NCBI RefSeq assembly: GCF_003001995.1
Contig: NZ_PVNB01000004.1
Location: forward strand, 1 to 64,000
DNA from: Orenia metallireducens
Lineage (GTDB): Bacteria; Bacillota; Halanaerobiia; Halobacteroidales; Halobacteroidaceae
Direction of reading: 5' to 3'
Length of the DNA: 64,000 nucleotides
Position 1 is the stretch's first letter, and each line of letters starts with the position of its first letter. The notes below the pieces were generated by a model. That model had not been told where the DNA came from. It searched no databases and saw only the letters and a list, made by a program, of their open reading frames with translations. The position numbers and the translations under genes are program-made. Below are positions 5,990-55,176 of this stretch, piece by piece.

Positions 5990-7327
5990 ATGGCAACTAA
6001 AAGAGGATTGAAGATTGCAACAATTGGGGGAGGAAGTAGTTATACTCCTGAGATAGTTGAAGGTTTTATCAAAAGATATGATGAGCTTCCAGTTAAAGAT
6101 TTATATCTAGTAGATATTGAAGAAGGTAAGTGGAAATTAGATATTGTTGGAGCCCTAGCTCAAAGAATGGTTGAAGAGGCTGGAGTAGATATGAAGATTC
6201 ATTTAACCTTAGATAGAAGAGAAGCGATCAAAGATGCAGATTTTGTAACAACTCAATTTCGAGTAGGGTTATTGGATGCAAGAATTAGAGATGAGAAGAT
6301 TCCACTAAGGTATAACTGTATTGGTCAAGAGACCACAGGAGCTGGTGGATTAGCCAAAGCATTACGTACCATTCCTGTGATTTTGGATATCTGTAAGGAT
6401 ATTGAAGAGTTAGCACCTGATGCGTGGTTGATTAACTTTACTAACCCTAGTGGTATTATAACAGAGACTATTAATAAACATACAAATGTTAAATCTATCG
6501 GTTTATGTAATGTTCCAGTCTTAATGCATATGATATCTGCTGATATCTTAGGTGTAGATAGAAATGATGTTAGAATGGACTTAGTAGGACTAAATCATCT
6601 TGTCTGGGGTAGAGATGTTATCTATAAAGGTGAAAGTAAGATTGATGAGGTAATTGAAAGGACTCTTAGTGGTAACATAGAGACAGTTAAAAATGTGGCT
6701 AATATTCCTTGGGGAGATGATCTTCTTAAGTCATTAGGAATGCTACCTTGTCCATACCACAGATACTACTACTTAACTGACAATATGTTGCAAGAAGAGA
6801 TTGAGGCTGCTAAAACCAAAGGTACTCGTGGAGAGGTTGTTAAGAAAGTAGAAGCTGAGCTGTTTGAGTTATACAAAGACCCAAATCTAAAAGTTAAGCC
6901 CAAGCAGTTAGAGCAACGTGGGGGACAATATTACTCAGATGCAGCTTGTAATTTAATCAGTTCTATCTATAATGATAAAGGTGATATCCATTATCTTAAT
7001 GTTAAAAATAATGGTACAGTAGATTGCTTACCAGATGATTCAGCAATTGAAAGAACCTGTTATGTAGATAAGGAGGGTGCACATCCATTAAATGTTAAAC
7101 CATTACCTTCTAAAGTAAAGGGGCTATTACAAGTAGTAAATGAGTATGAGTCCTTAGCAGTAGAGGCAGGGGTTTATGGAGATTATGATGCTGCATTACA
7201 AGCATTAGTCATTCACCCATTGGTAGAAAGCAGTATTGCTAAGCCATTATTAGATGATATTATCAAAGAGAATCTAGATTATCTACCACAATTTAAAGCT
7301 GTAGTTGAATCTGGTAGAGTAAAATAA
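5990..7327 (+). CDS. GH4 6-phospho-beta-glucosidase, copy 1
   Basis: Cytosolic NAD+- and Mn2+-dependent glycosidase that hydrolyses 6-phospho-beta-glucosides such as cellobiose-6'-phosphate by a redox-elimination mechanism; 445 residues, normal for GH4. Seen: N-terminal dinucleotide-binding GGGSSYTP, the family motif NFTNPSG at about 149-155, the metal ligands Cys173 (CNVP) and His203 (GLNHL) and the active-site region QYYSDAA. Start ATG 5990 follows AAGGGTGGTG. A copy with very high protein and DNA similarity lies at 12702-14039, so this is a recent duplication or is kept similar by conversion. First gene after the regulated promoter; a terminator follows. Confidence 0.93.
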   Translation: MATKRGLKIATIGGGSSYTPEIVEGFIKRYDELPVKDLYLVDIEEGKWKLDIVGALAQRMVEEAGVDMKIHLTLDRREAIKDADFVTTQFRVGLLDARIRDEKIPLRYNCIGQETTGAGGLAKALRTIPVILDICKDIEELAPDAWLINFTNPSGIITETINKHTNVKSIGLCNVPVLMHMISADILGVDRNDVRMDLVGLNHLVWGRDVIYKGESKIDEVIERTLSGNIETVKNVANIPWGDDLLKSLGMLPCPYHRYYYLTDNMLQEEIEAAKTKGTRGEVVKKVEAELFELYKDPNLKVKPKQLEQRGGQYYSDAACNLISSIYNDKGDIHYLNVKNNGTVDCLPDDSAIERTCYVDKEGAHPLNVKPLPSKVKGLLQVVNEYESLAVEAGVYGDYDAALQALVIHPLVESSIAKPLLDDIIKENLDYLPQFKAVVESGRVK

Positions 7328-7344
7328 CTTTTTATTTAGATATT

Positions 7345-7385
7345 AAAAGAAGATACTTATCTTTAAAGATAAGTATCTTCTTTTA
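7345..7385 (+). terminator. rho-independent terminator after GH4 copy 1
   Basis: AAAAGAAGATACTTATCTTT pairs perfectly with the following 20 bases, ending in TTCTTTT. Confidence 0.88.
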
Positions 7386-7444
7386 ACTATGCTCTACGAG
7401 GTAAAAAACTATTGGCTATGATATAATTGAAGGGAGGATTTAAA

Positions 7445-7705
7445 ATGTTTGAATTGATCGGGAATATTGCAGCTGTTTTAACTACTGCAGCCTTCTTTCC
7501 GCAAGTAATTCGAACTTGGAAGACAAAGTCCACAGATGATATGTCTTGGAGCTGGTTACTTATGCTTACAATAGGTGTGTTTTTATGGTTGATTTATGGT
7601 ATAAGTAATAGCTTGTTACCAGTTACTGCTGCCAATGGAGTTACTTTTTTATGCCTTTCAGTTTTGGTATATATTAAAACAAGTAACTTTTTAGCAAGGA
7701 GATAA
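7445..7705 (+). CDS. SemiSWEET sugar transporter
   Basis: Small membrane protein of 86 residues with three predicted helices and one PQ-loop motif (AFFPQVIRTW, Pro19-Gln20), the size and signature of bacterial SemiSWEETs, which dimerise to move mono- or disaccharides down a gradient. The conserved Asn of the third helix is present in AANGVT. ATG 7445 lies 7 bases after GGGAGG; the TTG at 7427 precedes that site and is not the start. It sits between phospho-glucosidase and a HAD enzyme in the beta-glucoside locus, fitting a role in glucose or disaccharide exchange, though the substrate cannot be read from sequence. Confidence 0.88.
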   Translation: MFELIGNIAAVLTTAAFFPQVIRTWKTKSTDDMSWSWLLMLTIGVFLWLIYGISNSLLPVTAANGVTFLCLSVLVYIKTSNFLARR

Positions 7706-7794
7706 TTTCAATAGAGAAGATTAATATTGTGTAAATTAGTTTGAAATAATTATTAGTGGGCTAGGATCATATAACTAAAAATGAGGTGTTAAAT

Positions 7795-8454
7795 ATGACT
7801 GAGTTGAAAGCTGTTATCTTTGATATGGATGGTGTGATTATTGATAGTGAACCAATTCATTATCAAGTCAAGCAGATTCTTTTTGAAAAACTAGGGATAG
7901 AGATGTCTAAAGAGGAATATAGCGCTTTTATTGGTTCTTCTAGTAGTGAGATATGGGCTGCATTAAAGGAGGGTTATAACCTTAAAGAGAGTGTTGAAGA
8001 TTTACTAGCTAAGCAGAATCAAATTCTGATAGAGAGCTTAAAATCTAGAGAAGATAAGACAGTTGCTGGGATAATGAACTTGCTTGAAGAATTAAAGAAG
8101 AATGACTTAAAGATTGCATTAGCCTCATCTTCTCCTGTAAAAGTTATTGAGGTAATCTTAGATAAATTAAAAATCAAGGAATATTTTTTGGAGACTGCTA
8201 GTGGTGAAAGTTTTGTCAAGAGTAAACCAGATCCTGAAATTTTTCTATATACTGCTGATAAGCTTGAGGTTAAAAGCAGAGAATGTTTAGTAATTGAAGA
8301 CTCTAAAAATGGTGTCGAAGCAGCTAAAAAAGCTGGGATGAAATGTATAGGGTTTAAGAATCCTAATTCGGGAGATCAAAATTTATCTAAAGCAGATTTA
8401 ATTGTAGAATCTATTGAAGTAATTGATATGGAGACTTTGACTGATTTATTTTAG
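7795..8454 (+). CDS. HAD-superfamily hydrolase, beta-phosphoglucomutase-like
   Basis: Cytosolic HAD subfamily IA enzyme of 219 residues. Visible motifs: I, FDMDGVIID with nucleophile Asp10 and acid/base Asp12; II, ASSSP; III, KSKPDPEIF; IV, VIEDSKNGVEAAKKAGM. The small helical cap of about 70 residues and motif I followed by DSEP are shared by beta-phosphoglucomutases and 2-deoxyglucose-6-phosphatases, so mutase versus phosphatase is not settled. ATG 7795 is 6 bases after GAGGTG; a GTG at 7786 overlaps that site. Located with sugar genes; a mutase would make sense only if beta-glucose-1-phosphate is produced by a phosphorylase, which is not seen here. Confidence 0.82.
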   Translation: MTELKAVIFDMDGVIIDSEPIHYQVKQILFEKLGIEMSKEEYSAFIGSSSSEIWAALKEGYNLKESVEDLLAKQNQILIESLKSREDKTVAGIMNLLEELKKNDLKIALASSSPVKVIEVILDKLKIKEYFLETASGESFVKSKPDPEIFLYTADKLEVKSRECLVIEDSKNGVEAAKKAGMKCIGFKNPNSGDQNLSKADLIVESIEVIDMETLTDLF

Positions 8455-8520
8455 TTGATCAAGAGGCAGCACAATTGATTTAGTATTATTATATCTAGTG
8501 GTGAAGGGGAGGGGCTGTCA

Positions 8521-9744
8521 TTGTTGCTTTTTTTAAGAAATCAAAAGATTCAATTTGCTTTACTACAATGGGCTTTTTGGAGTACATGGAGCTCTTTTGC
8601 TTCATTTTATGTCTTTTATTTTAGCGAACAGGGCTACAGTAGTACAAATATAGGTCTATTTTTATCAATAATGACCTTGATGGGATTAATTGGGCAGTTG
8701 TTTTGGGGATATATATGTGATTTGAAAAGGACAATAAAGAGGGTCTTTATCTTTTGTATAACTATCATAGCTTTGATTATATTATTATTTCCCTATTATC
8801 AAAATGCTTATCTAATTATGCTTGCTATGGGTGGAATAGGATTTTTGTGGACAGCTCAGCAGTCTATAATTGATAGCTGGATCTTACAGAGTTCAACTGA
8901 GTTAAGGGAGAACTATGGCTTTACAAGGGCATGGGGTTCTTTGGGATTTGCTTTAATAGCTGTTATCTTTGGAAAGGTGATTCAGATGTATGGTTGGAAT
9001 ATTATTTTTATAGGTTATCCACTGCTATCACTTCTTATAATTATTATAGCTTCTAAAATAGAGGATGGTTATCAAAAAGACTTGCTTACTGCTAATCAAA
9101 ATGAAAAATCAGTAGTGGTGAATCCATTTTTATTATTTAAAAACTTTGAATATATTTATCTGCTGATTATAGCAACTTTGATCTTTATGCCAAATACAAT
9201 TATGATAAGTTTTCTACCAATGTTTTTGAAGAATGTAGGAGGGACAACTAGCCATCAGGGGCTAGCTCTTTTTTTTATTGCGATCAGTGAAGTACCTACG
9301 CTGCTTTTATCTAAGCAGTTTATTATCAAGTATAATTATAGAGTTATACTTTTGTTTTCAGCAATATTTTATATAGTTAGGCTTACTTTATTATCATTAG
9401 CAACTTCTCCAGCGATGATTATTGGTGTTGGAATGCTACAGGCCTTATCTTTTGCTGTATTTTTACCGACAGTAAGATATTCAATCAATCAAATTGCTCC
9501 TGATAGCTTAAAGACAACAGCACAAACCTTTGCTACCTGTTCTTATTTGGGCTTAGGTGGAGTTTTAGCAAATTCCTTAGGAGGAGTGGCTATAGATTAT
9601 TTTGGAGTTAGAGTTCTTCTATATGCTTGTATAGGGATAATTGCTATTGTCATAGCAATATTATTAGTAACTATAATAATTAATAAGGAATTTAAAGTAA
9701 AAGAGGTATCTATCGAGGAGAGCCTATCAAAAGAAGCTGTATAA
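8521..9744 (+). CDS. MFS transporter (LacY/nucleoside-symporter-like)
   Basis: Twelve-helix major facilitator protein of 407 residues in the inner membrane. The N-terminus WAFWSTWSSFASFYVFYFSE and the loop GYICDLKRTIKRV (variant of the MFS loop 2-3 motif) fit the MFS_1-like group that contains LacY and 3-phenylpropionate permease-type symporters. The start is TTG 8521, 6 bases after AAGGGGAGGGG; the next codon is also TTG. It ends the unit that begins with SemiSWEET or the HAD gene and is followed by the long regulated leader of the PTS operon. A sugar or glucoside substrate is likely by context. Confidence 0.82.
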   Translation: MLLFLRNQKIQFALLQWAFWSTWSSFASFYVFYFSEQGYSSTNIGLFLSIMTLMGLIGQLFWGYICDLKRTIKRVFIFCITIIALIILLFPYYQNAYLIMLAMGGIGFLWTAQQSIIDSWILQSSTELRENYGFTRAWGSLGFALIAVIFGKVIQMYGWNIIFIGYPLLSLLIIIIASKIEDGYQKDLLTANQNEKSVVVNPFLLFKNFEYIYLLIIATLIFMPNTIMISFLPMFLKNVGGTTSHQGLALFFIAISEVPTLLLSKQFIIKYNYRVILLFSAIFYIVRLTLLSLATSPAMIIGVGMLQALSFAVFLPTVRYSINQIAPDSLKTTAQTFATCSYLGLGGVLANSLGGVAIDYFGVRVLLYACIGIIAIVIAILLVTIIINKEFKVKEVSIEESLSKEAV

Positions 9745-42413: not shown

Positions 42414-42445
42414 AAGCCCCTTCGTACAGGAAGGGGCTTTTTTTA
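42414..42445 (+). terminator. terminator after the chemoreceptor
   Basis: AAGCCCCTTC pairs with GAAGGGGCTT, then a T-run. Confidence 0.9.
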
Positions 42446-42529: not shown

Positions 42530-42590
42530 CTTTTTAATAATATAAATACATGAAAACAAAGTGGAATACTAGGAAATGGAGTGGTGGAGA

Positions 42591-42809
42591 ATGAAAATTA
42601 AAGTTAATGGTGAAGCAGTAGAGTTGGAAAAAGAGTTAACAGTTAGTGAATTATTGGTAAAGCAAGATGTAGATATGCCAGATATGGTATCAGTAGAATT
42701 AAATGGTGAGATTTTAGATAGAGATACTTTTTCAGACACAGTTGTAAAGGATGGAGACCAAGTAGAATTTCTCTACTTTATGGGTGGTGGAGCAAGTGTA
42801 CGATTTTAG
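42591..42809 (+). CDS. hcyS: ThiS/MoaD-like sulfur-carrier protein with C-terminal tail
   Basis: Ubiquitin-fold sulfur carrier of 72 residues. ThiS-like proteins end in Gly-Gly, which is adenylated and turned into a thiocarboxylate. Here the end is FLYFMGGGASVRF: the diglycine (within Gly65-67) is followed by ASVRF, so the tail must be removed before activation. The JAMM protease gene two places on is the obvious candidate, as in the Wolinella HcyS/HcyD system where a C-terminal residue is cleaved. ATG 42591 follows GGTGGAGA; an ATG at 42576 lacks spacing. Its last 26 bases overlap the next gene. First gene of an operon leading to sulfite reductase. Confidence 0.85.
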   Translation: MKIKVNGEAVELEKELTVSELLVKQDVDMPDMVSVELNGEILDRDTFSDTVVKDGDQVEFLYFMGGGASVRF

Positions 42810-43602
42810 TGAAGAGCAGTTACAGAGATATTCAAGGCATATTATTTTGCAGGATGTTGGTGTAGAAGGGCAAGAGAAATTGTTAACTAGTTCAGTACTT
42901 ATTATAGGAACTGGAGGGCTTGGAACACCAGCAGCACAGTTTTTGGCAGCAGCTGGTATCGGTAAGATTGGTTTAGTGGATGCAGATAAAGTAGAGCTTT
43001 CTAACCTACAACGTCAGGTCTTACATCATACACCTGATGTAGGTAAATTAAAGGTACAATCAGCTAAAGAGAAGATCAATGCGATGAACCCTGATGTAGA
43101 GGTCAAGACCTATGACTACTACTTGACTTCTCAAAATATAAAGGAAGTTATTAGAGAGTATGATTTTGTAATAGATGGTACTGATAACTTCCCAGCTAAA
43201 TTCTTAATCAATGATGCGTGTGTAATGGAAGGTAAGCCTTTCTCCCACGCAGGAATTATTAGATTTGGAGGGCAGACAACAACTGTAGTTCCAGGAGAAG
43301 ATACACCATGTTATAGATGTATGTTTCCTCAGCCACCTAAGCCTGGTTCAGTTCCTTCTTGTAAGGAAGCAGGAGTTATCGGAGTAATGGGTGGAGTGAT
43401 TGGAACTATCCAAGCAACAGAGGCTATCAAGTATATCTTAGGAAAAGGTGAGCTCTTAACTGGAAAATTACTAACCTATGATGCCTTAAAGATGGACTTT
43501 AGAAAGATCAATCTCAATAAGAGAGAGAACTGTGGGATTTGTAGTGATGATCCAGAGATCACAGAATTAATCGACTATGAACAAGGAGTCTGTGAATTAT
43601 GA
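42784..43602 (+). CDS. hcyF: E1-like ThiF/MoeB-family adenylyltransferase
   Basis: ATP-dependent activator of the carrier C-terminus, about 272 residues. Seen: nucleotide loop GTGGLGTPAAQFL (Gly42 on), the family motif LSNLQRQVL, zinc cysteines Cys176/Cys179 (CYRC) and Cys250/Cys253 (CGIC), and a cysteine at 193 in PSCKEAGVIG where related enzymes carry a reactive Cys. The start is uncertain among GTG 42784, 42787 and 42796, all inside the previous gene and out of its frame. The next gene starts in an ATGA overlap. Predicted to adenylate the processed carrier for sulfur loading. Confidence 0.88.
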   Translation: MVEQVYDFSEEQLQRYSRHIILQDVGVEGQEKLLTSSVLIIGTGGLGTPAAQFLAAAGIGKIGLVDADKVELSNLQRQVLHHTPDVGKLKVQSAKEKINAMNPDVEVKTYDYYLTSQNIKEVIREYDFVIDGTDNFPAKFLINDACVMEGKPFSHAGIIRFGGQTTTVVPGEDTPCYRCMFPQPPKPGSVPSCKEAGVIGVMGGVIGTIQATEAIKYILGKGELLTGKLLTYDALKMDFRKINLNKRENCGICSDDPEITELIDYEQGVCEL

Positions 43603-44012
43603 TAATCAAACTACCTAAAGAGCTATACCAGAAGCTACTTAAGCATACTCAAGCTGAATTTCCTAATGAAGGCTGTGGTTTAGTGGCTGGAGCAAAAACT
43701 GGTGATGGGATTGAAGTTAAAGATGTATATACAATGACCAATCTAGATGCTTCAGCAGAGCACTTTACAATGGATCCTAAAGAGCAGTTTGCAGTGGTCA
43801 AAGAGGTTAGAAATAAGGGCTATGATTTGATTGGAAACTATCACTCTCATCCTTTTACCCCTTCTCGTCCATCAGAAGAGGATAAGAGGTTGGCTTATGA
43901 TGAAGATGCAATCTACTTTATCCTATCTTTAAAGGATGAAGAACCAGTACTAAAGGCTTTTAGTATCAAAAAACAGAAGGATGTTACTCAGATAGAGCTT
44001 GAATTAATTTAG
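43599..44012 (+). CDS. hcyD: JAMM/MPN+ metalloprotease of the sulfur carrier
   Basis: Zinc isopeptidase/peptidase of 137 residues with the full JAMM motif: upstream Glu24 (NEGCGLVAG), His82-Ser-His84, then seven residues to Ser92 and Asp95 (HSHPFTPSRPSEED). Such enzymes in sulfur-carrier operons trim residues after the diglycine. ATG 43599 overlaps the previous stop (ATGA), and the sulfite reductase begins 19 bases downstream, so production is coupled to the carrier pathway. Cleavage of the carrier after Gly67 or Gly66 is inferred. Confidence 0.9.
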   Translation: MIIKLPKELYQKLLKHTQAEFPNEGCGLVAGAKTGDGIEVKDVYTMTNLDASAEHFTMDPKEQFAVVKEVRNKGYDLIGNYHSHPFTPSRPSEEDKRLAYDEDAIYFILSLKDEEPVLKAFSIKKQKDVTQIELELI

Positions 44013-44031
44013 TGAAAGGAAGGTGAAGAAT

Positions 44032-46362
44032 ATGAGTAATCGACCGATTTTTAATATTCCAGATACAGTTAAAGAAGACACGAATAATTATCCCAAATTA
44101 GTCGAACGTTTTGTAGCGAAAGACTTAGATGATGCTAGATTTAAAGGGCGTAGAGTTCCAATGGGAATCTATAGTCAGAGGGGCTATGAGCCTGGAGAAG
44201 AGAGATATATGGTCAGAGTTAGAGTTCCAGGTGGAGTGGTAAGTAAAGAACAATTAAAAACTTTAAATGAATTAAGTAAAGAGTATGGCAATGGATATAT
44301 TCATATTACCACTAGACAGGATGTACAGATTCATCAGGTTAAGATAGAGGATACACCAGAAGTATTATTTAAGCTATTAGAGGCTGGATTAAGTCCACGA
44401 GGTGGTGGGGGTAATACTGTTAGAAATATCTTAAATTCTGCTAGAGCAGGGGTCAATCCTGAGGAAGCTTTTGATACTACACCCCATAACTTGGCTTTAA
44501 CAGAATATCTGATTAAGACACGCTCTTCTTTTAATCTACCAAGAAAGTACAAGATCGCTTTCTCCTCGGATCCTAAAGATGATTCTTTAGCTACATTAAA
44601 TGATTTAGGCTTTATAGCTACCAAGCAAGATGGGAAGAAAGGCTTTAAAGTATATGGAGCAGGGGGAATGGGAGGCTCTTCAGAATTAGGTATAGTTTTA
44701 GAGGAGTTCGTAGAAGAGGATAAGATCTTCCATATAGCAGAGGCTATTAAGCGATTCTTTGATGAGCATGGTGATCGTAGTAATAAACATAGGGCTAGAC
44801 TCCGTTTTGTCAGAAAGCGCCTTGGTGATGAAGAGTTTGTCAATAAATATAAAGAGTACTTAGCAGAAGTGCTAACAGAAGATCTAGAGGTTGAAGAGTT
44901 AAATAGATATGAGGAATTAAGAGCAGGTAAAGGAGAAAAGATTGATTTAATAGCTGATTATCTTTATGCAGAGAAGGTAGAAGGCTATTATTCTTTAGAG
45001 CTTAGAATGGAGAATGGAGATATCAACTATGATGAATTGAATCTCTTATTAGAGCTATTAGATGATAGTGAGATATCTTTAAGAACTACTATCAAACAAG
45101 GCTTATTAATTAGAGGTATTAAAGGGCAAGATTTAGCAGGGTTAATTGAGAAGATTAATCAGGTCAATCCTAATCTAGTAGTTGCCAATATGGGAACAAT
45201 GCCTGTTTCTTGTAAAGGTGCATCTACTTGTAAACTAGGATTATGCGTTTCACCTAATTTATCAGAGGCTATTAGAGAGAAATTAATTACTTTAGATGAT
45301 AAAGTGCAAGCAGCATTACCGCAAATTTATATCAGTGGTTGCCCAAATGTCTGTGGACAGCATATTATTGGTAATATTGGTTTTGAAGGTAAGGCTAAGC
45401 GATATAATGATAGATTGGTTCCTCACTATGCATTATTTTTAGGAGGAAATGTAGAGGAAGGTAATAGTAAGTATGGAGAGGCAGTTATAGATATTCCTGC
45501 TAAGCGGATACCAGAGTTTTTGGCAGAATTGGCTAAATTATTGGCTGAAGATGGAGATTATAACCGAGCTGATTTTAATGATTATCTAGAAAAGGGTGGA
45601 AAAGCTAAGATAGTTGAACTGGCTGAGCAATTCATTGAGATTCCTACTTATGAACAAAATCCAGATATTTATAAGGATTGGGGTAAGAAAGAAGACTTCT
45701 CCTTAGCAGGTAGAGGACCTGGAGAATGTGGAGCAGGTGTAATGGATATCATCCAATTGGATATCAATACTGCAAAATCTAATTATAGTAAAGGAATCAA
45801 AGCAGAGGATAACAATGAACTTTATAAAGCAATTATCAATGCTGCTAGAGCATTATTGGCTGTAAGAGGAATAGATACCGATAAGGATAGAGTTATTTTA
45901 GCAGAATTTAAAACCGAGTTTATCGATAAGAATTTGTCAGATAAACATTATAGTGAGCTTTTAGATGCTGCCCTAGATTATAAACTAGGAGATATTGATA
46001 GTCTATTATCTTATCAAGACCAGATTGATGCTTTAATTGAACGAGTAGACTTTTTATTCAACTCTTTAAATGCTAAATTGGAGTTTGAATTAGAAGAAGT
46101 TACTAGTGATAATAATAATGAAGATAAGAATATCTTAGGTAATAAGGTGGCAGATTTAAGAGGAGTTAAATGTCCAATGAACTTTGTCAAGGCTAAGGTG
46201 GCAATAGCACCTCTTAATTCAGGGGATATAATAGATATTTATTTAGATGAGGGAGCACCGATAGCTAATGTTCCTCAGAGTCTGGCTTCAGAAGGACACG
46301 AAATCCTATCTAAAGAGAAGAGAGAAGACGGTTCATATAGCTTAAGAGTTAAAAAAGCATAG
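44032..46362 (+). CDS. sulfite reductase fused to helical domain and TusA domain
   Basis: 776-residue three-part protein. Residues about 1-545: siroheme/[4Fe-4S] sulfite-nitrite reductase with cluster and siroheme ligands C394-x5-C400 and C437-x3-C441, and the siroheme-binding TTRQDVQIH and GGGGNTVRN. About 550-690: all-helical region (YSKGIKAEDNNELYKAIINAARALL) resembling a HEPN-type domain. About 700-776: TusA/SirA domain with its sulfur-carrying Cys714 in RGVKCPMN. ATG 44032 is 6 bases after GGAAGGTGA; a GTG at 44023 lies in that site. Sulfide or persulfide made at the siroheme may pass via Cys714 to the carrier thiocarboxylate; inference. Confidence 0.9.
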   Translation: MSNRPIFNIPDTVKEDTNNYPKLVERFVAKDLDDARFKGRRVPMGIYSQRGYEPGEERYMVRVRVPGGVVSKEQLKTLNELSKEYGNGYIHITTRQDVQIHQVKIEDTPEVLFKLLEAGLSPRGGGGNTVRNILNSARAGVNPEEAFDTTPHNLALTEYLIKTRSSFNLPRKYKIAFSSDPKDDSLATLNDLGFIATKQDGKKGFKVYGAGGMGGSSELGIVLEEFVEEDKIFHIAEAIKRFFDEHGDRSNKHRARLRFVRKRLGDEEFVNKYKEYLAEVLTEDLEVEELNRYEELRAGKGEKIDLIADYLYAEKVEGYYSLELRMENGDINYDELNLLLELLDDSEISLRTTIKQGLLIRGIKGQDLAGLIEKINQVNPNLVVANMGTMPVSCKGASTCKLGLCVSPNLSEAIREKLITLDDKVQAALPQIYISGCPNVCGQHIIGNIGFEGKAKRYNDRLVPHYALFLGGNVEEGNSKYGEAVIDIPAKRIPEFLAELAKLLAEDGDYNRADFNDYLEKGGKAKIVELAEQFIEIPTYEQNPDIYKDWGKKEDFSLAGRGPGECGAGVMDIIQLDINTAKSNYSKGIKAEDNNELYKAIINAARALLAVRGIDTDKDRVILAEFKTEFIDKNLSDKHYSELLDAALDYKLGDIDSLLSYQDQIDALIERVDFLFNSLNAKLEFELEEVTSDNNNEDKNILGNKVADLRGVKCPMNFVKAKVAIAPLNSGDIIDIYLDEGAPIANVPQSLASEGHEILSKEKREDGSYSLRVKKA

Positions 46363-46368
46363 TAATTA

Positions 46369-46448
46369 GTTGATAATTTGAAGTTGATAGTTGATAGTTA
46401 AAAAACAAGTAATTTATAATTATCAACTATCAATTGTACACTAAATAA
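46369..46448. repeat. hairpin repeat of the TTGATAGTTGATA type
   Basis: TTGATAGTTGATA (46384-46396) and TATCAACTATCAA (46421-46433) are perfect 13-base complements. The right side continues TTGTACACT, shared with repeats at 24963 and 60630. It fills the gap before metY. Confidence 0.7.
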
Positions 46449-46464
46449 CAGGGAGGAGAATATA

Positions 46465-47682
46465 ATGGACTTTGAGACGAAGTTGGTAAATTTGAAGATC
46501 AAGGATCAATATGGTGCGACAAATACTCCAGTTTATTTAAATAACTCTTTTGCTTATGATAATGCGGAAGATTTAGAGAAGGTATTTAATAATCGTGCCT
46601 TGGGATATACTTATTCAAGAATTAGCAATCCTAGCACTAAAAGTGTAGAGGATAAATTAGCTAGCCTTGAAGGTGGAAAACAGGCGATAGTATGTGCATC
46701 AGGAATGGCTGCTATCTCTACAGCTACTTTGACTTTATTAGAAGCAGGAGATGAGTTTATCTCAACTAGCTCTTTATTTGGTGGGACTTATAACCTCTTT
46801 AAGAACTATCAAAAATATGGAATTAAACCACGTTTCAGTCAAGGTATTGAAGCTGAGGATATTGCAGAGCTGATAACTGATAAGACAAAGTTCGTCTTTT
46901 TAGAGACCTTAGGAAATCCTAAATTGGATATTCCAGATATTAAAGGGATAGCTAAGCTCTGTGAGAAGAATCAGATTCCATTGATCGTTGATAGTACAGT
47001 CACAAGCCCTGTTTTAATCAAGCCAATTGAGCTAGGGGCAAATCTGGTAATCCATTCAACTTCAAAGTATATCAATGGTACCTCTAACTCGATTGGTGGA
47101 GTGATTGTTGATGGAGCAAACTTTGATTGGACTGTCTTTGATAATTTTGCTGATTATAAGAGGTTTAGTAAATTAGCCTTTAGTGTTAAAGCTAGAGGAG
47201 AGGTCTTTAAAGACTTTGGACCTTGTTCATCGCCATTGAGCTCTATGTTAAATGAACTGGGGATTCCTACTTTAGCTTTAAGAATGGAAAAGCATTGTCA
47301 GAATGCATTAGAATTAGCCGAATTTTTGGCAGAGCATCCAGAGGTAAAAGAGGTTAATTATCCAGGTTTAGAGGATAATCAGTATAATCAACGGGCTAAA
47401 GAATTATTTGCTAATGGATTTGGAGGAATGTTGACCTTGAGAGTTGGTAGTAAAGAGAAGGCTTTTGAAATTATAAATAATTTAGAGTACTTCTATAACT
47501 TAGCTAATATTGGTGATGTTAAATCCTTGGTGATTCATCCTGCATCTACAATCTATGCTGGTAATACGGTAGAAGAAAGAGAGTCATTGGGTGCTTATAA
47601 TGATTTAATTAGGGTCAGTGTAGGGATTGAGAATGTAGAAGACCTTAAAGCAGATTTTGCACAAGCACTAAATAAGTACTAG
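46465..47682 (+). CDS. metY: O-acetylhomoserine sulfhydrylase
   Basis: PLP enzyme of the Cys/Met metabolism family, 405 residues. PLP lysine Lys201 is in HSTSKYINGTSNSIGG; YSRISNPSTKSVEDKLASLEGG near the N-terminus is characteristic. It makes homocysteine from O-acetylhomoserine and a sulfur donor. GGGAGGAG precedes ATG 46465. Directly after carrier, activator, protease and sulfite reductase, the sulfur donor is probably the carrier thiocarboxylate rather than free sulfide, as described for Wolinella. Confidence 0.92.
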   Translation: MDFETKLVNLKIKDQYGATNTPVYLNNSFAYDNAEDLEKVFNNRALGYTYSRISNPSTKSVEDKLASLEGGKQAIVCASGMAAISTATLTLLEAGDEFISTSSLFGGTYNLFKNYQKYGIKPRFSQGIEAEDIAELITDKTKFVFLETLGNPKLDIPDIKGIAKLCEKNQIPLIVDSTVTSPVLIKPIELGANLVIHSTSKYINGTSNSIGGVIVDGANFDWTVFDNFADYKRFSKLAFSVKARGEVFKDFGPCSSPLSSMLNELGIPTLALRMEKHCQNALELAEFLAEHPEVKEVNYPGLEDNQYNQRAKELFANGFGGMLTLRVGSKEKAFEIINNLEYFYNLANIGDVKSLVIHPASTIYAGNTVEERESLGAYNDLIRVSVGIENVEDLKADFAQALNKY

Positions 47683-47980
47683 TTAACAGTGGACAGTGAA
47701 CAGTTAAATTCAAAAAATTTATAACCATTGGAACCTAATAAATTAGCAATGAATTAACACAAATTGTACGAATTAAAAGTAAAGATTAAATTATAAATGA
47801 TAAATTAAGGTTTTAAGAAGTTCTTGATTTAATTCCTGTAAATTTGTGAAATTGGCTGCTAAAAAATTGTTTTGAATTAGTTTTTTAGATTCTAAGTAAT
47901 GAAAGATTGGGTGTTAGATTGTTTTGTTCTTTGGCTTTTTAGGTGTTTAACTGTCAACTATCAACCGTCAACTGTAAACT
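47681..47980. repeat. long inverted repeat AACAGTGGACAGTGAACAG / ACTGTCAACTATCAACC
   Basis: Left arm 47683-47706 and right arm 47946-47980 are approximate complements built of 7-8 base units (GACAGT, GAACAGT, GTCAACT). The 240-base interior is AT-rich, with words shared with 55248-55313 (TTAGCAATGAATTA), and has no gene. The arms abut metY and the cysC ribosome binding site. Confidence 0.6.
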
Positions 47981-48004
47981 AATAAATTAGGGAGGAGTTT
48001 GAGT

Positions 48005-48637
48005 ATGGAGGAATCGACTAATAAGAATATAGTTTGGCATGAAGGAAAGGTAAGTTATCAAGATAGGTGTGAGAATTTAGATCAAGAGGGTTTAGTTATT
48101 TGGTTTACTGGACTTTCTGGGGCTGGTAAATCTACTATTGCTGTAGAGGTTGAAAAAGAATTGATTAAATTAGGTAAGGCTGTTTATCGTTTAGATGGTG
48201 ATAATGTGCGCCATGGCTTGAACTCAGATTTAGGATTTACTGCTGAGGATAGAAATGAGAATATCCGCAGAATTGCTGAAGTGGCAGCATTATTTAAGGA
48301 TGCAGGGTTAATTACTTTGGCTTCTTTTATCTCTCCATATCAGAAGATAAGAGATTTTGCTCGACAGAGAGCAGGCAAAGATAACTTTATTGAGGTTTAT
48401 GTTAAAGCTGATGTAGAGACCTGTGCAGAACGTGATCCAAAAGGCTTATATGAGAAGGCTAAGAGTGGAGAGATCAAGAACTTTACTGGAATCTCTGCTC
48501 CTTATGAAGTTCCAGAGGATGCTGATTTGGTCTTAGATACTGTTGAATTATCGGTAGAAGAGGCAGTAGCAAAGGTATTAGAGTCGATTGATAAGAGACA
48601 GGGGATAATTAAGAAGAAATTACAGGCAATAGGATAA
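48005..48637 (+). CDS. cysC: adenylylsulfate (APS) kinase
   Basis: P-loop kinase of 210 residues making PAPS from APS. Walker A GLSGAGKS at 36-43, LDGDNVRHGLNSDLGF and FISPYQ (phosphoserine position) are all family-typical, as is the N-terminal IVWHEGKVSYQDR. ATG 48005 is 8 bases after GGAGGA; a TTG at 47999 is too near. No PAPS reductase (CysH) is in the window, and the locus has AprAB for direct APS reduction, so PAPS here may serve sulfation or an unlinked reductase. Confidence 0.94.
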   Translation: MEESTNKNIVWHEGKVSYQDRCENLDQEGLVIWFTGLSGAGKSTIAVEVEKELIKLGKAVYRLDGDNVRHGLNSDLGFTAEDRNENIRRIAEVAALFKDAGLITLASFISPYQKIRDFARQRAGKDNFIEVYVKADVETCAERDPKGLYEKAKSGEIKNFTGISAPYEVPEDADLVLDTVELSVEEAVAKVLESIDKRQGIIKKKLQAIG

Positions 48638-48794: not shown

Positions 48795-48817
48795 AATTAA
48801 CGGTAAGGGTGATGGCG

Positions 48818-50209
48818 ATGTTTAAAAGGCTTAAAGATTTTATTATTATTGGTGGAATCATACTATTTTTATCGGTGTTATTATTGCCACAACCTGAAGG
48901 ATTAACTGTAGCTGCCAAGAGTTCTATTGCTCTGTTTATACTCTGTTTGAGTCTATGGATTAGTAATGCTATTCCTTTAGCAATTACCAGTTTGTTAGGA
49001 ATAATTTTGATTCCACTATTGGGTATCTTAGAGTTGGATGAGGCCTTTGCCCTTTTTGGAAATAAAGCTATCTTCTTTATTCTGGGAGCTTTGATTTTAG
49101 CAGCTGGGATTTATCAAACTGGTTTAGGCTCTAGAATTGCCTTTAGCATTTTAAAGAAATTTGGTCAAAGCCCTCGAAAATTACTGTTAGGAATATTATT
49201 AACCTCTGCTTTATTGTCCTGCATCATGCCAGAGCATGCAGTAGCCGCTTTATTATTACCGATTATCTTAGAGGTGGCTACTAGTCTAGAGTTAAAGCCT
49301 TTAGAGAGTAATTACGGGAAGCTATTATTCTTATCTATGGCGTGGGGGGCAATTATTGGTGGAATAACGACTTTTTTAGGGGGAGCACGAAACTTATTAG
49401 CAGTGGGTTTGCTTGAGAAGAACTATGATATTTCCATTGGTTTTTTTGAATGGATTAAGTATTCTTGGCCAATTCCTACTTTAATTTTATTAGTGACTTA
49501 TTTTATAATTGCTAAGCTTGTAAAGATAGATATAGATAGTATAGAGTTGGCAAGAGAGACCTTAGAAGCAGAGATAACTAGCAGAGGGGCAATGTCTAGC
49601 AAGGAAAAGAAGCTGATGTTAGTTTTAATAGCTGTGCTCTTTAGTTGGCTATTCTTATCTTCTATAATTGATATAGCTATTACCTCTATCTTGGGTGCTG
49701 TATTGACCTTTGCTATTCAGGTAGTAGAGTGGCATGATATTGAGGAATATGTCAATTGGGGTGTGATTTTAATGTATGGTGGAGCAATTGCAGTAGCCAC
49801 CTCTTTGGTAAGGACAGGTGCTACCAATTGGCTATCTGAGGCTGTGTTTGTCCATCTGAATCTATCGCCCTTTATCTTTCTGATATTTTTAGCCATCTTC
49901 ACTATGTTACTTACTGAAGGGATTAGCAACGCAGCGGCAGTGGCGATTGTTCTGCCTTTAGCCTATAGTATAGGCGATATCTATCAGATCAATCCGATTA
50001 TTATTACCTTATCTGTTGCTCTGCCAGGAGGTTTGGCCTTCTCTTTGCCGATGGGCTCACCCCCTAATGCTATTGCCTACTCTTCAGGATATTATAGAAT
50101 TAGCGATGTAGTTAAATTTGGTCTGATATTAATGCTGATCTCTTGGCTAGCGTATATGTTAGTTGCTAAATTTTATTGGCCACTGATAGGATTAAAGATT
50201 TTAATATGA
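48818..50209 (+). CDS. SLC13/DASS-family anion transporter (probable sulfate)
   Basis: Sodium-coupled transporter of about 463 residues with 11-12 helices. The C-terminal signature ISNAAAVAIVLPL is present. In the first repeat the usual SNT stretch is replaced by MPEHAVAALLLPI, which may alter sodium or anion binding. Start chosen at ATG 48818 after AAGGGTGA; ATG 48812 is the alternative. Lying between APS kinase and ATP sulfurylase, sulfate is the likely substrate although the family also carries dicarboxylates. No CysPTWA or SulP gene is nearby. Confidence 0.85.
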   Translation: MFKRLKDFIIIGGIILFLSVLLLPQPEGLTVAAKSSIALFILCLSLWISNAIPLAITSLLGIILIPLLGILELDEAFALFGNKAIFFILGALILAAGIYQTGLGSRIAFSILKKFGQSPRKLLLGILLTSALLSCIMPEHAVAALLLPIILEVATSLELKPLESNYGKLLFLSMAWGAIIGGITTFLGGARNLLAVGLLEKNYDISIGFFEWIKYSWPIPTLILLVTYFIIAKLVKIDIDSIELARETLEAEITSRGAMSSKEKKLMLVLIAVLFSWLFLSSIIDIAITSILGAVLTFAIQVVEWHDIEEYVNWGVILMYGGAIAVATSLVRTGATNWLSEAVFVHLNLSPFIFLIFLAIFTMLLTEGISNAAAVAIVLPLAYSIGDIYQINPIIITLSVALPGGLAFSLPMGSPPNAIAYSSGYYRISDVVKFGLILMLISWLAYMLVAKFYWPLIGLKILI

Positions 50210-50258: not shown

Positions 50259-50744
50259 ATGGAAAAAATAATGTTATTATTATTCAGTTTCGCTTCTTTA
50301 GATAAGGTTATTGAAGATTCTTTTAAATTATTGACTAAGGAGAATCAATTACAGGTGATAGCAGTATTAGAAGAAGAGCTTCCTGCATCATTACCAAAGC
50401 TAATTTCTCAGATAGGTTTTTTAGGAGAGAAGGTAACTGAAGATGTAAAGGAGATCATCCTAAAGGAATATAAGAAAAGAGGGGTTGAGACTCTAAAATC
50501 CATCTCTGCAAAGGGAATGGAGGAAGGGTATCAAGTTAAAGTAGAACAGATAGCTAAAACAGCCCTACCTAATTTAAAGCAAGATTTACAGCAAGGAGAA
50601 TTTAGTCAGTTGATAATCAACTATACTCGTGATCAATTTATCTCTAAAGATGTACTAGCATATGAGATTGATGATTTTTTAGAAGGTTTAGATATATCTT
50701 ATAGGATATATTATGATGGCAAATTAGCAACGGAAAAGCAGTGA
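50259..50744 (+). CDS. unknown protein in sulfate-assimilation operon
   Basis: 161-residue soluble protein, no signal peptide. It opens MEKIMLLLFSFASLDKVIED with an alternating beta-alpha pattern faintly like a universal-stress-protein fold, followed by charged helices and a late strand (SQLIINYTRDQFI). I do not recognise a catalytic motif. GGTGGTG precedes ATG 50259 at a long 11-base spacing. It lies 49 bases after the SLC13 gene and 117 before sat, so it may regulate the transporter, as USP-like partners do for other carriers; speculative. Confidence 0.55.
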   Translation: MEKIMLLLFSFASLDKVIEDSFKLLTKENQLQVIAVLEEELPASLPKLISQIGFLGEKVTEDVKEIILKEYKKRGVETLKSISAKGMEEGYQVKVEQIAKTALPNLKQDLQQGEFSQLIINYTRDQFISKDVLAYEIDDFLEGLDISYRIYYDGKLATEKQ

Positions 50745-50760: not shown

Positions 50761-50860
50761 AAAGAGCTAAAGGTAATGTGAATTATTTTATTAGGCAGTA
50801 TAAGTGTGTTTTATATTAAAAAAATATAACGATAAAAGAGATAATAAGGGAGTTGTTATA

Positions 50861-52012
50861 ATGTTAATTGAAGCCCATGGTGGAAAGTTGGTTAATAGAG
50901 TACTAGAAGGAGAAGAGCGTGAAGAATTACTAGAGAAGGCAGCTAAAATGCCTCAGTTGAAGTTGAGCTTAAGAGATTTGACTGAGGCTGAAAATATAGC
51001 TATTGGACTTTATAGCCCTTTAGAAGGATTTATGACTGAAGATGATTATACTAAGGTTGTTGAAGATATGTACTTAAGTAATGGCTTACCTTGGACTATT
51101 CCAGTGGTATTGGGAGTTAGTCAAGCTAAGGCAGAGAGTTTAGAGGTAGATCAAGATGTGGCTTTAACTGATAGTGAGGGTACTGTATATGCGATTTTAC
51201 ATTTGGCTGATAAATATGAGTACGATCAAGAGCAGGAAGCTCAGCTAGTATATAAGACTACAGAGACTGAGCATCCAGGTGTAGTAAAGGTTTATGAACG
51301 TGGTGAGGTCTTATTAGGTGGTAAAATCTCATTATTAAGAAGAATTGAGCATAAGCTATTTAATGAGTATAGGTTGGATCCAAAGGATGTTAGAGAGTTA
51401 ATTAAAGAGAAGGGATGGAATCGGGTAGTAGGCTTCCAGACTAGAAATCCTATACATAGAGCCCATGAATATATTCAAAAGTGTGCTTTAGAGATCTGTG
51501 ATGGGTTATTATTAACACCATTAGTAGGTGAGACTAAGGGGACAGACGTACCAGTAGAGTATCGAGTTGAGAGCTATGAAGTAGTAATGAATAAGATCTA
51601 TCCTCAAAATAGAACAGGTTTGGCAGTATTTCCAGCGGCAATGAGATATGCAGGACCAAGAGAGGCAGTATTTCATGCTTTATGTCGTAAGAATTATGGT
51701 TGTACCCACTTTATCGTTGGTCGTGACCATGCAGGTGTTGGAGATTATTATGGTACTTATGAAGCCCAAGAGATGTTCGATAACTTTAAACCTGAAGAGA
51801 TAGGTATTGAACCATTACGCTTTGACCATGCTTTTTATTGTAAGGAGTGTGAGAGCATGGCTACTGCTAAGACATGTCCTCATGGTCAAGAAGACCACAT
51901 CTTCTTAAGTGGTACTAAAGTACGTGGCTTATTAAGAGATGGACAGAGACCTCCAAAGCAGATGACTAGACCAGAGGTAGCGGATGTATTGATTAAGGGA
52001 ATGGCGAAATAA
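50861..52012 (+). CDS. sat: ATP sulfurylase (sulfate adenylyltransferase)
   Basis: Homo-oligomeric enzyme of 383 residues making APS from sulfate and ATP. HxxH motif His199-His202 in QTRNPIHRAHEY, GRDHAGVGDYYG with His290, and the zinc-type cysteines CKECESMATAKTC are all present, as in Sat of sulfate reducers. ATG 50861 follows AAGGGAG; an in-frame upstream codon at 50804 has no support. It starts the Sat-AprA-AprB arrangement. Confidence 0.95.
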   Translation: MLIEAHGGKLVNRVLEGEEREELLEKAAKMPQLKLSLRDLTEAENIAIGLYSPLEGFMTEDDYTKVVEDMYLSNGLPWTIPVVLGVSQAKAESLEVDQDVALTDSEGTVYAILHLADKYEYDQEQEAQLVYKTTETEHPGVVKVYERGEVLLGGKISLLRRIEHKLFNEYRLDPKDVRELIKEKGWNRVVGFQTRNPIHRAHEYIQKCALEICDGLLLTPLVGETKGTDVPVEYRVESYEVVMNKIYPQNRTGLAVFPAAMRYAGPREAVFHALCRKNYGCTHFIVGRDHAGVGDYYGTYEAQEMFDNFKPEEIGIEPLRFDHAFYCKECESMATAKTCPHGQEDHIFLSGTKVRGLLRDGQRPPKQMTRPEVADVLIKGMAK

Positions 52013-52318: not shown

Positions 52319-52345
52319 ATTATTGCACTTAAAAGGGTGGTGAAA

Positions 52346-54040
52346 ATGAATAATATCGAAATTGTTAATTTAAAGACTGATATTTTAATTATTGGTGGTG
52401 GCGCTGCTGGCTGTTATGCAGGGGCTAGAATCAAAGAAGAGGACCCTAAGGCTGATGTCCTAATAGTTGATAAAGCCCATATCAAGCGCAGTGGTTGTCT
52501 AGCTGCAGGAATTAGTGCAATTAATGCCTATCTCAATCCTGGAGTAACTCCCAAGGATTTTTTAGATTATGTCAAGAAGGATTCAGAAGGTTTAGTCAGG
52601 GATGATCTGGTTTATACTCTGGCTCAAGGATTGAACAAAGCAACCCATTGGCTTGAAAAGTGGGGTTTACCCTTCTTAAAGGATGAAGTAGGTAATTATG
52701 TAGCCAAGGGTAAGCGAAGTGTCAAGATTAACGGTGAACATATTAAGCCGATTATGGCTAAAGCTGTTGAAGAGAGTGGAGTAGAGGTTTTAAATAGGGT
52801 CAATATTAGCAATTATATAGTAGTAGATGATCAAGTTAGAGGAGCCTTTGGTTTTTCTGTTAGAGAGAATAAGTTCTATGTAATTCAGGCTAAGGCTGTT
52901 ATCTGTGCTACAGGAGGGGCAGCAGGGATTTATAAGCCTAATAATCCAGGTTCAGCTCGCCATAAGATGTGGTATTCTCCCTTTAATACTGGTGCTGGCT
53001 ATGCTATGGGGATTCGGGCTGGAGCAGAGATGACAACCTTTGAAATGAGATTTATTGCTTTAAGGACCAAGGATACCATCTCTCCTACAGGGGTTTTGGC
53101 ACAAAGCTTTAAGGCAAAGCAGGTTAATGGGGAAGGTATAGAATATCAAGAAGAATATAAGAAGAATTCTACTCCCTATAGATTACATGCTACTTTAGAG
53201 GAGAATAAAGAGGGGAGAGGGCCTTGTTACTTAGATGTGACTCATTTAAGTGATGAGAGCAATCATCGTTTAAAGCGAGCCTATTTAAATATGTCTCCAG
53301 GAATTGTCTTAAAGTGGGCTGATGGAGAGATAGAGCCTAATCAAAGTCCAGTAGAGATATATGGAACAGAACCTTATATCGTAGGTGGTCATTCTCAATC
53401 AGGCTATTGGGTTGATAGCAAGAGAAGAAGTACCATAGCAGGGTTATATGCAGCTGGTGATGTGGCTGGAGGAGCACCTAAAAAGTACGTTACTGGAGCT
53501 ATGGTTGAAGGTGAGATAGCAGGGCTTGATGCTTTGGATTATATTAGAGGTAGAGATTTTGTAGATCTCTCTAATAACCTTATCAACAAAGAGTTTGATA
53601 GAGTATTCTCTCCTTTGGAAAAGGAGGAAGGCTTTCTTCCAGAGGATCTTGAAGAGCGATTACAGAAGGTTATGGATGAATATGCTGGAGGTATTAGTAC
53701 TAATTACCGTTTAGATGAAGGCAAATTAATTATGGCTAGAAAAGAGCTTAGAAGGCTAAAGGAAGATTTAACTAGAGCAAAGGCGGAAGATGTCCATCAG
53801 CTGATGAATTTACATGAGGTTATTGATCGAGTAGATGTGGCTAGAGTGCTTGTAGAGCACTTATTATATAGAAAAGAGACCCGCTGGAGATGTTATCAGG
53901 AGAGGGTTGATTATCCTAAGAAGGATGATGAAAATTGGTTTAAATTTGTCAATTCTAAGTATAACCAAGAGCTTGATCAGATTGAAATCATCGAAAGAGA
54001 ACATATAAGGTTAGGTGATTTAGATGGCAGTCAAAATTGA
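52346..54040 (+). CDS. aprA: adenylylsulfate reductase alpha subunit (AprA-type)
   Basis: FAD enzyme of 564 residues reducing APS to sulfite and AMP. FAD loop ILIIGGGAAGCYAG at the start, RSGCLAAGISAINAYL (substrate channel) and two residues matching APS-binding positions: Arg in FEMRF and His in VGGHSQSG. Shorter than dissimilatory AprA (about 620-660), mainly by a reduced C-terminal half. ATG 52346 follows AAAGGGTGGTG. Overlaps AprB by 17 bases. No QmoABC or DsrAB is in the window, which points to assimilation. Confidence 0.9.
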   Translation: MNNIEIVNLKTDILIIGGGAAGCYAGARIKEEDPKADVLIVDKAHIKRSGCLAAGISAINAYLNPGVTPKDFLDYVKKDSEGLVRDDLVYTLAQGLNKATHWLEKWGLPFLKDEVGNYVAKGKRSVKINGEHIKPIMAKAVEESGVEVLNRVNISNYIVVDDQVRGAFGFSVRENKFYVIQAKAVICATGGAAGIYKPNNPGSARHKMWYSPFNTGAGYAMGIRAGAEMTTFEMRFIALRTKDTISPTGVLAQSFKAKQVNGEGIEYQEEYKKNSTPYRLHATLEENKEGRGPCYLDVTHLSDESNHRLKRAYLNMSPGIVLKWADGEIEPNQSPVEIYGTEPYIVGGHSQSGYWVDSKRRSTIAGLYAAGDVAGGAPKKYVTGAMVEGEIAGLDALDYIRGRDFVDLSNNLINKEFDRVFSPLEKEEGFLPEDLEERLQKVMDEYAGGISTNYRLDEGKLIMARKELRRLKEDLTRAKAEDVHQLMNLHEVIDRVDVARVLVEHLLYRKETRWRCYQERVDYPKKDDENWFKFVNSKYNQELDQIEIIEREHIRLGDLDGSQN

Positions 54041-54359
54041 TAAGAACTTATGTAATGGCTGTGGGAGTTGTAAAGAGTCTCGTTGTATGGCAGTCTGTCC
54101 TGGCAATTTATTATACAAAAATGAAGATAATCAAGCTAAGATCAGGGATAAACGGGAATGCTGGGACTGTGCTGCTTGTGTCAAGGAATGTCCAAGGCAA
54201 GCCATTGCCATGTATCTGCCAGCAGAGGTTGGGGGGAGAGGGTCTACCTTGCAGGCACAGGATTTTGGTGATAAAATAGTATGGAAGCTAAAGAAATTAG
54301 ATGGTAGTATAGAAGAATTTAATATCCAGAATAAATTATTATTTAATTCAAATTTGTAA
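54024..54359 (+). CDS. aprB: adenylylsulfate reductase beta subunit (ferredoxin-like AprB)
   Basis: Electron-transfer subunit of 111 residues with two [4Fe-4S] sites: CNGCGSCKESRCMAVCP and CWDCAACVKECP, the first with an insertion typical of AprB. Dissimilatory AprB is longer (about 145-165) because of a C-terminal arm that wraps AprA; here only about 45 residues follow the last cysteine. The gene follows aprA with a 17-base overlap, the reverse of the aprB-aprA order in sulfate reducers. The electron donor is unknown. Confidence 0.9.
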   Translation: MAVKIDKNLCNGCGSCKESRCMAVCPGNLLYKNEDNQAKIRDKRECWDCAACVKECPRQAIAMYLPAEVGGRGSTLQAQDFGDKIVWKLKKLDGSIEEFNIQNKLLFNSNL

Positions 54360-54426
54360 GCATATCATGTTCTATGGTGTGCTTATTTGTTATAATATAG
54401 GTATGTGAATTCAAAATGAAACTTAA

Positions 54427-54723: not shown

Positions 54724-55176
54724 ATGAAAAAAGTAGTTGTAGAGAGCTTTACAATGGATCATACTAAGGTCAGCGCACCCTTTGCTAGAAAGGCTGGTAC
54801 TATTGAAACACCTAAGGGTGATATTATCACTAAATTTGATTTAAGGTTTCTCCAGCCTAATCAAGAGGCAATGCCAACAGCTGCTCTTCATGGCTTAGAA
54901 CATCTATTAGCAGGCTTTATCAGAGAAGAGTTAGATGATGTAGTAGACTTATCACCAATGGGCTGTAGAACAGGATTTTATCTAATCTTAGTAGGAGAAA
55001 GAAGTGAAGCGGAGGTAGCTGTTGCTTGGATTAATGGGCTTAAGAAGGTCTTAGAGGCTGAGGAAATTCCAGCAGCAAACCCTATTCAATGTGGTAATTA
55101 TAAAGATTTGTCCTTATTTGGAGCTAAAGAGTATGCTAAGATTGTCTTGGAAGGTCTAATGAAAAAGTATAATTAG
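54724..55176 (+). CDS. luxS: S-ribosylhomocysteine lyase
   Basis: 150-residue metalloenzyme splitting S-ribosylhomocysteine into homocysteine and DPD (precursor of autoinducer 2). Metal ligands HGLEH (His56, His60) and the Cys in IQCGNY, plus active-site Cys81 in MGCRTGFY, are present. AAAGGGGGA precedes ATG 54724. Separated from aprB by repeats, so co-transcription is doubtful, but its product homocysteine links it to the cluster before it. No Pfs gene in the window. Confidence 0.96.
   Translation: MKKVVVESFTMDHTKVSAPFARKAGTIETPKGDIITKFDLRFLQPNQEAMPTAALHGLEHLLAGFIREELDDVVDLSPMGCRTGFYLILVGERSEAEVAVAWINGLKKVLEAEEIPAANPIQCGNYKDLSLFGAKEYAKIVLEGLMKKYN

Follow-up and report, generated by a model that had tools for sequence, protein, structure and literature searches.

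A siroheme sulfite reductase fused to HEPN-fold and TusA domains in Orenia metallireducens, with a candidate sulfur relay to homocysteine

Introduction

How does the sulfur made by a siroheme sulfite reductase (Sir) reach its acceptor when the reductase and a putative sulfur carrier are parts of one and the same polypeptide? The question is raised by a gene of Orenia metallireducens, contained in the 64,000-nucleotide stretch of contig NZ_PVNB01000004.1 analysed here (the window), whose product appears to join a sulfite reductase to a helical domain and a TusA domain. The original prediction was that Cys714 of the TusA domain could take the sulfur as a persulfide, such that no free sulfide is released, with the helical linker positioning TusA. 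On further analysis the architecture, the reductase site, Cys714 and the link to homocysteine have stood, whereas rigid positioning and the simple persulfide chemistry have not.

One chain with three parts

The gene is a single frame of 776 residues, running from an ATG at 44032 to a stop codon at 46360-46362 with no internal stops. A GTG at 44023 would add three residues, but the ATG, which is preceded by GGAAGGTG, is the better start. The parts of the chain are as follows, with the evidence for each in brackets.

44032-46362, forward strand: Sir-GEC-HEPN-TusA fusion protein, 776 residues (frame, Pfam, relatives)
44032-45660, forward strand: siroheme/[4Fe-4S] sulfite reductase part, approximately residues 1-543 (Pfam, CysI alignment, Foldseek to NirA/NiR/SiR)
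45697-45732, forward strand: FSLAGRGPGECG loop, residues 556-567, with the invariant Cys566, codon 45727-45729 (conservation, pLDDT)
45733-46101, forward strand: HEPN-fold helical domain, residues 568-690 (Pfam in relatives, VIA)
46096-46140, forward strand: flexible tether, residues 689-703 (pLDDT below 50, family lengths)
46141-46359, forward strand: TusA domain, residues 704-776, with the invariant Cys714, codon 46171-46173 (Pfam, conservation, Foldseek)

Pfam finds NIR_SIR_ferr, NIR_SIR (E 5e-38) and TusA (residues 708-775, E 1.2e-16) on the chain; together with the open frame, the HEPN fold described below and the recurrence of the protein in relatives, this bears out the three-part fusion originally read from the sequence. 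The accompanying worry over a frame artefact can be dismissed, and an assembly artefact with it, since the full chain is present without internal stop in 18 of 61 related genomes (55-92% identity), and all 35 loci that a search of the GTDB collection with the linker alone returned have the order Sir-linker-TusA. The carriers of the fusion in GTDB include Halanaerobiia, Actinomycetota, Armatimonadota, Chloroflexota and Planctomycetota, and further Verrucomicrobiota and relatives, Spirochaetota, Omnitrophota and a bin named Campylobacterales. On the evidence of this recurrence, the Sir-HEPN-TusA fusion is judged to be old and real. Two apparent natural splits (G223 and L134) are not counted as such because the first consists of two contig ends and the second is a probable frameshift.

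A predicted sulfate-to-homocysteine operon

The fusion gene is the fourth of a co-directed set, the other members and flanking signals of which are listed here.

42414-42439, forward strand: terminator-like hairpin upstream of the operon (pattern scan only)
42576-42809, forward strand: ThiS-like sulfur carrier (HcyS-like), ending FMGG-GASVRF (Pfam ThiS, family tails)
42784-43602, forward strand: E1-like adenylyltransferase (HcyF-like), rhodanese domain absent (domain and family matches)
43599-44012, forward strand: JAB/Mov34 metalloprotease (HcyD-like) with intact JAMM motif HSHPFTPSRPSEED (domain matches)
46465-47682, forward strand: MetY-type O-acetylhomoserine sulfhydrylase (family matches)
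47999-48637, forward strand: APS kinase CysC (family matches)
48809-50209, forward strand: DASS/SLC13-type sulfate (anion) symporter (family matches)
50259-50744, forward strand: 161-residue ORF between symporter and Sat (no match in Pfam or NCBIfam)
50804-52012, forward strand: sulfate adenylyltransferase Sat (family matches)
52337-54359, forward strand: APS reductase, AprA at 52337-54040 and AprB at 54024-54359 (NF005331, TIGR02060)
54356-54386: second terminator-like hairpin, after the operon (pattern scan only)

For the APS reductase, the match to NF005331 has 901 bits (cut-off 557), the TIGR02060 match lying under its own cut-off. APS reductase AprAB yields sulfite. The HcyS-like protein is evidently a precursor, since a tail follows its GG. 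By its gene content the operon is predicted to function as a sulfate-to-homocysteine set of the HcyS/HcyF/HcyD/MetY type, and the link to homocysteine formation that was proposed for the fusion gene is borne out by these neighbours. Very probably, the immediate sulfur acceptor is the product of the ThiS-like gene, which lies three genes before the fusion, and not O-acetylhomoserine directly. The genome also contains two CysK genes, such that the cell can use free sulfide as well, which counts against the relay proposed below.

Some further features of the locus may be recorded. On both sides of metY (46382-46435 and 47949-47973) stand short repeats of the AGTTGATAGTTGATAGTT type, in either orientation, with five matches against 0.21 expected, far above chance. 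A LuxS gene, whose product also yields homocysteine, lies just downstream of aprAB (54724-55176). Rfam at its gathering threshold gave no riboswitch or other family in positions 36000-64000 or in nine related loci.

The sulfite reductase part

Alignment places C394, C400, C437 and C441 on C434, C440, C479 and C483 of E. coli CysI, and the four are conserved in all 42 family members compared, which confirms the reductase site as first assigned. The anion (sulfite)-binding residues R62, R131, K172 and K174 are also present, and are kept wherever a family sequence extends over them. Foldseek matches of this part are NirA, NiR and SiR structures, and a nitrite reductase is indeed the closest sequence with a solved structure; nevertheless, the fusion is set apart from the nitrite reductases by the K-x-K pair at its sulfite site, where tobacco NiR has PRKWN (K-x-N), and a nitrite reductase identity is for now rejected on this ground. 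In terms of its predicted activity, the Sir part is an assimilatory siroheme sulfite reductase of the CysI/NirA type.

Outside Halanaerobiia, the Sirs of loci L025-L050 have four extra cysteines (ACP-x-AGVCP and GC-x-x-DC, at columns 136, 142, 180 and 184 in the numbering of the window fusion, P0001), which are possibly the ligands of a second cluster; none is found in the window's own class.

The HEPN-fold domain and its tether

Residues 568-690 align with 2hsb at a VIA-align Z of 13.0 over 110 residues, with mostly HEPN or HEPN-like structures in the next ranks, although unrelated helical bundles can have scores close to a Z of 13. Necessarily, the Pfam HEPN matches of relatives are needed too, and these occur in 13 of the 36 members, at best with E 3.9e-6; on the window protein by itself Pfam HEPN stays below threshold, and a Foldseek search with the HEPN part only gave no match with E below 0.001. 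From the VIA score and the Pfam matches in relatives taken together, the modelled domain is assigned the HEPN fold, and the HEPN-like character given to the helical domain in the original prediction is thereby supported. An RNase or toxin role was considered and rejected, since the R-x4-6-H motif occurs in 8 of 36 members at varying places and is absent from the window protein; a PHROGs search on the same lead found nothing. With this motif not conserved, the domain looks like a scaffold.

Between the HEPN and TusA domains lies a tether with pLDDT below 50, which across the family is 17-50 residues long, with E, A, S, D, K and P abundant. Because it is both of low confidence and variable in length, the TusA domain is best modelled as a swinging arm, and the suggestion that the helical linker could position it does not hold in the sense of a rigid spacer. 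In other words, structure prediction of the linker region supported a HEPN fold but not a fixed placement, pLDDT being low both before and after that domain.

Co-occurrence with the HcyS genes

Of the 61 relatives, 18 have the fusion and 17 of these also encode JAB, which the other 43 all lack (Fisher p 3e-14, kinship ignored). More widely, two or more of ThiS, E1 and JAB lie near 37 of 53 TusA-bearing Sir genes, several of these being on short contigs, versus 1 of 40 GEC Sirs without TusA. The HcyS genes track the TusA domain, and not the GEC cysteine by itself. Three lineages have JAB joined in frame to the front of Sir-GEC-HEPN-TusA, giving proteins of 866-955 residues, which ties the reductase to the handling of HcyS. 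Two other genomes encode separate TusA, AsrC-type Sir, JAB, E1 and ThiS in one operon, such that two unlike sulfite reductases are paired with a like TusA in an HcyS setting. It is thus highly probable, given this pattern of genes, that Sir supplies the sulfur with which HcyS serves homocysteine synthesis.

At seven loci E1 has the ThiS-like carrier as an in-frame N-terminal fusion (..FFMGGGAFDLTEEEIERYSRHI..), from which it follows that JAB would need to cut HcyS off its own activating enzyme; by analogy, the arrangement appears much like a polyubiquitin precursor.

Cys714 and the role of the TusA domain

The TusA domain scores 60.7 bits in Pfam (cut-off 28.6) and its Foldseek matches are TusA/SirA structures. 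Its Cys714 is invariant in all 42 members, in agreement with the importance first given to it, and a carrier role is plausible. That Cys714 carries Sir-derived sulfur covalently is, by a small margin, more probable than not.

The main rival to a relay is that the domain serves for docking and the sulfur travels as free bisulfide, in which case TusA would recruit the partners, bisulfide released by Sir would attack the HcyS acyl-adenylate near HcyF-HcyS, and Cys714 would never be loaded. Krishnamoorthy and Begley reportedly found in 2011 that bisulfide made by Sir sufficed for HcyS thiocarboxylate formation in Wolinella, and docking fits this biochemistry, with its free bisulfide. It fits also with the motif around Cys714, which is CPxN instead of the usual CPxP in all HcyS-context members read (one TusA of a split operon has CPIT), and with the ability that a tethered TusA could have to recruit HcyF and HcyS. 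A Sir at L136 (G427, 6603-9002) even has a TusA-like C-terminal domain from which the cysteine is lost (VTSTIGF), with GEC kept. No HcyS genes were seen, however, within the 14 kb examined around L136, whereas wherever HcyS genes are found Cys714 is invariant, and docking needs no invariant cysteine. Docking without loading is accordingly regarded as rather unlikely.

A second alternative would keep Cys714 as a carrier but load it by the classical IscS-TusA route, or have it serve tRNA or Moco, the fusion merely co-localising different uses of sulfur. Standalone TusA is loaded by IscS, and the PDB 3lvj complex is among the fold matches of the TusA part. Against this, the Orenia genome has two further TusA-domain proteins besides the fusion, the operon has no desulfurase gene, and the fusion goes together with the HcyS operon and with genes of sulfate reduction, all of which makes such loading improbable. 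At another locus (L070, G011) an 86-residue remnant TusA, which shares 70% identity with the domain of the fusion, stands beside a truncated AprA, with Sir absent.

The sulfur carried could also be oxidised, with Cys714 or Cys566 bringing sulfite to the siroheme as an S-sulfonate or thiosulfonate, comparable to the TusA-thiosulfonate carriers known from sulfur oxidisers. In Metallosphaera, thiosulfonate is carried by TusA and DsrE3A (PMC4175335), and AprAB is encoded in the same operon as the fusion. However, same-clade standalone Sirs do without TusA, and the fusion is linked to the HcyS genes and not to the type of APS reductase. Furthermore, AprAB is not known to work with a thiosulfonate-type carrier, and this explanation is regarded as very improbable.

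Cys566 and the [GA]EC arm

Apart from the cluster ligands, the cysteines conserved in the family are C714 (42/42), C405 (41/42) and C566 (42/42), and no others. Besides those ligands, the original prediction named Cys714 alone and overlooked the equally invariant Cys566. Since part of the 42-member set came from a scan that used an ECG pattern, C566 was re-examined in the matches of the whole-profile search; it stays GEC or AEC in every intact fused member read, including those found without the motif.

Relatives from whole-genome samples of other phyla show where this cysteine originates. In standalone Sirs of Chloroflexota and Actinomycetota (mostly frames of 585-740 residues) the motif stands at the chain end, for example GEGECAV, GAGECMS and GPGECAS, with the form GEC-x-x-COOH in 28 of 30; in one it is one residue further and in one several residues before the end. 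These proteins (L101-L130) are assimilatory Sirs with a DsrC-like terminal cysteine and no link to HcyS genes, those of Chloroflexota often adjoining Sat and CysC genes. Actinobacterial Sirs of 746-800 residues have GEC and a HEPN-like extension, with TusA absent. In a maximum-likelihood tree, a well supported branch separates 25 of 27 TusA-bearing Sirs from those that end in GEC or have HEPN only, with a few gains or losses. The GEC cysteine is common to both sides; the tree is unrooted and does not order these events. Given that GEC also occurs in Sirs with neither TusA nor HcyS neighbours, the role of Cys566 is not specific to an HcyS relay.

This distribution bears on whether Cys566 might be structural or a redox switch (disulfide regulation, partner binding), with only TusA mattering in transfer. 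Conservation where no carrier is encoded nearby would be expected of such a residue. Yet a cysteine that is invariant across phyla and lies three residues away from a free C-terminus, a position that it has in the standalone relatives and not in the window protein, where it is internal, is typical of a thiol arm. Moreover, pLDDT is below 50 at residues 565-567, just before the HEPN domain; because the loop is disordered in the model, Cys566 is not expected to be structural in the apo chain. A purely structural or switching role is unlikely, and a place for Cys566 in the sulfur relay, read from its conservation, is possible if somewhat short of probable.

A proposed sulfur relay

The formation of a persulfide from sulfide and a thiol requires an oxidant, such as a second cysteine, or else a zero-valent sulfur product. 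The simple idea that Cys714 becomes a persulfide straight from sulfide is thus unbalanced, and it is here that the chemistry of the original prediction fails. Two routes would restore the balance. In the first, Sir would give zero-valent sulfur that is taken by Cys566, as in DsrAB-DsrC; in the second, a C566-C714 disulfide would take bisulfide. One study has assimilatory SiRs giving S0 directly, with so far no evidence for DsrC in assimilation (PMC13188885).

The proposed sequence would begin with the making of sulfite by Sat and AprAB and its reduction at the siroheme of the Sir part. Cys566, on the mobile [GA]EC arm, would take the sulfur as a persulfide in the fashion of the DsrC arm, and Cys714, on the tethered TusA swinging from the HEPN scaffold, would receive it from Cys566. 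In either route, Cys714 would then attack the HcyS acyl-adenylate made by HcyF, and Cys566 could resolve the resulting acyl disulfide, as in ThiI. The HcyS thiocarboxylate would feed MetY, and HcyD would trim HcyS and free homocysteine. We infer each sulfur-transfer step from the architecture, the conserved cysteines, the tether, the operon and the co-occurrence, and regard the relay as a whole, from Sir through Cys566 and Cys714 to adenylated HcyS, as the most likely explanation, at about even odds. More tentatively still, the large clade of assimilatory GEC Sirs may carry a DsrC-like arm of its own, its product being an enzyme-bound persulfide and not free sulfide; to this the HcyS branch would have added TusA as a swinging arm, channelling the sulfur to the ubiquitin-like carrier so that no sulfide is released.

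Relation to known systems

Wolinella succinogenes reportedly has a protein-thiocarboxylate methionine pathway comprising HcyS, HcyF, HcyD, Sir and MetY. With regard to functions, Orenia has the same: a ThiS-like precursor with a post-GG tail, E1, JAB, Sir, O-acetylhomoserine sulfhydrylase and sulfate reduction. The Orenia Sir has HEPN and TusA in its own chain together with the Cys566 arm, in which it may differ from that of Wolinella, and the published Wolinella mechanism reportedly uses free bisulfide. For this pathway PMC5764234 cites Krishnamoorthy and Begley 2011. The same neighbourhood as the Orenia operon was described by Iyer, Burroughs and Aravind in 2006 (PMC1779556) as class 4e (ThiS/JAB/E1/SirA), where SirA/TusA was predicted to replace rhodanese; SirA is there a neighbouring protein, and a ThiS-Sir fusion is given for actinobacteria. 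The available part of that paper makes no mention of a Sir-HEPN-TusA fusion, the [GA]EC cysteine or JAB-Sir fusions.

DsrAB-DsrC likewise combines a siroheme reductase with a cysteine on a mobile arm, by which S0 is taken up, whereas the Orenia enzyme is a monomeric assimilatory Sir of the NirA/CysI type and has arm and carrier in one chain; Pfam gives no DsrC match on the fusion at E up to 0.01. In ThiI and MOCS3/Uba4, a carrier persulfide similarly acts on a ThiS/MoaD-like acyl-adenylate and a second cysteine resolves, but in Orenia TusA would replace the rhodanese and the sulfur would come from sulfite reduction, not from cysteine.

The thiocarboxylate pathway, the gene neighbourhood and the TusA role predicted in 2006 are thus already known. 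A literature search on HEPN and sulfite reductase together found nothing, and the literature searched, which consisted mostly of openly accessible papers, had no description of the three-part HEPN chain, the shared [GA]EC cysteine, the variable tether or the JAB-Sir fusions; within this narrow scope these features appear to be new.

Significance

It is currently debated whether assimilatory SiRs set sulfide free or pass on zero-valent sulfur (PMC13188885). With two invariant cysteines outside the cluster in a single-chain Sir, this question becomes testable by two point mutants. The fusion, moreover, physically connects sulfate assimilation with prokaryotic ubiquitin-like chemistry, and the combination of [GA]EC with a CPxN TusA may serve as a sequence mark for the thiocarboxylate route to homocysteine.
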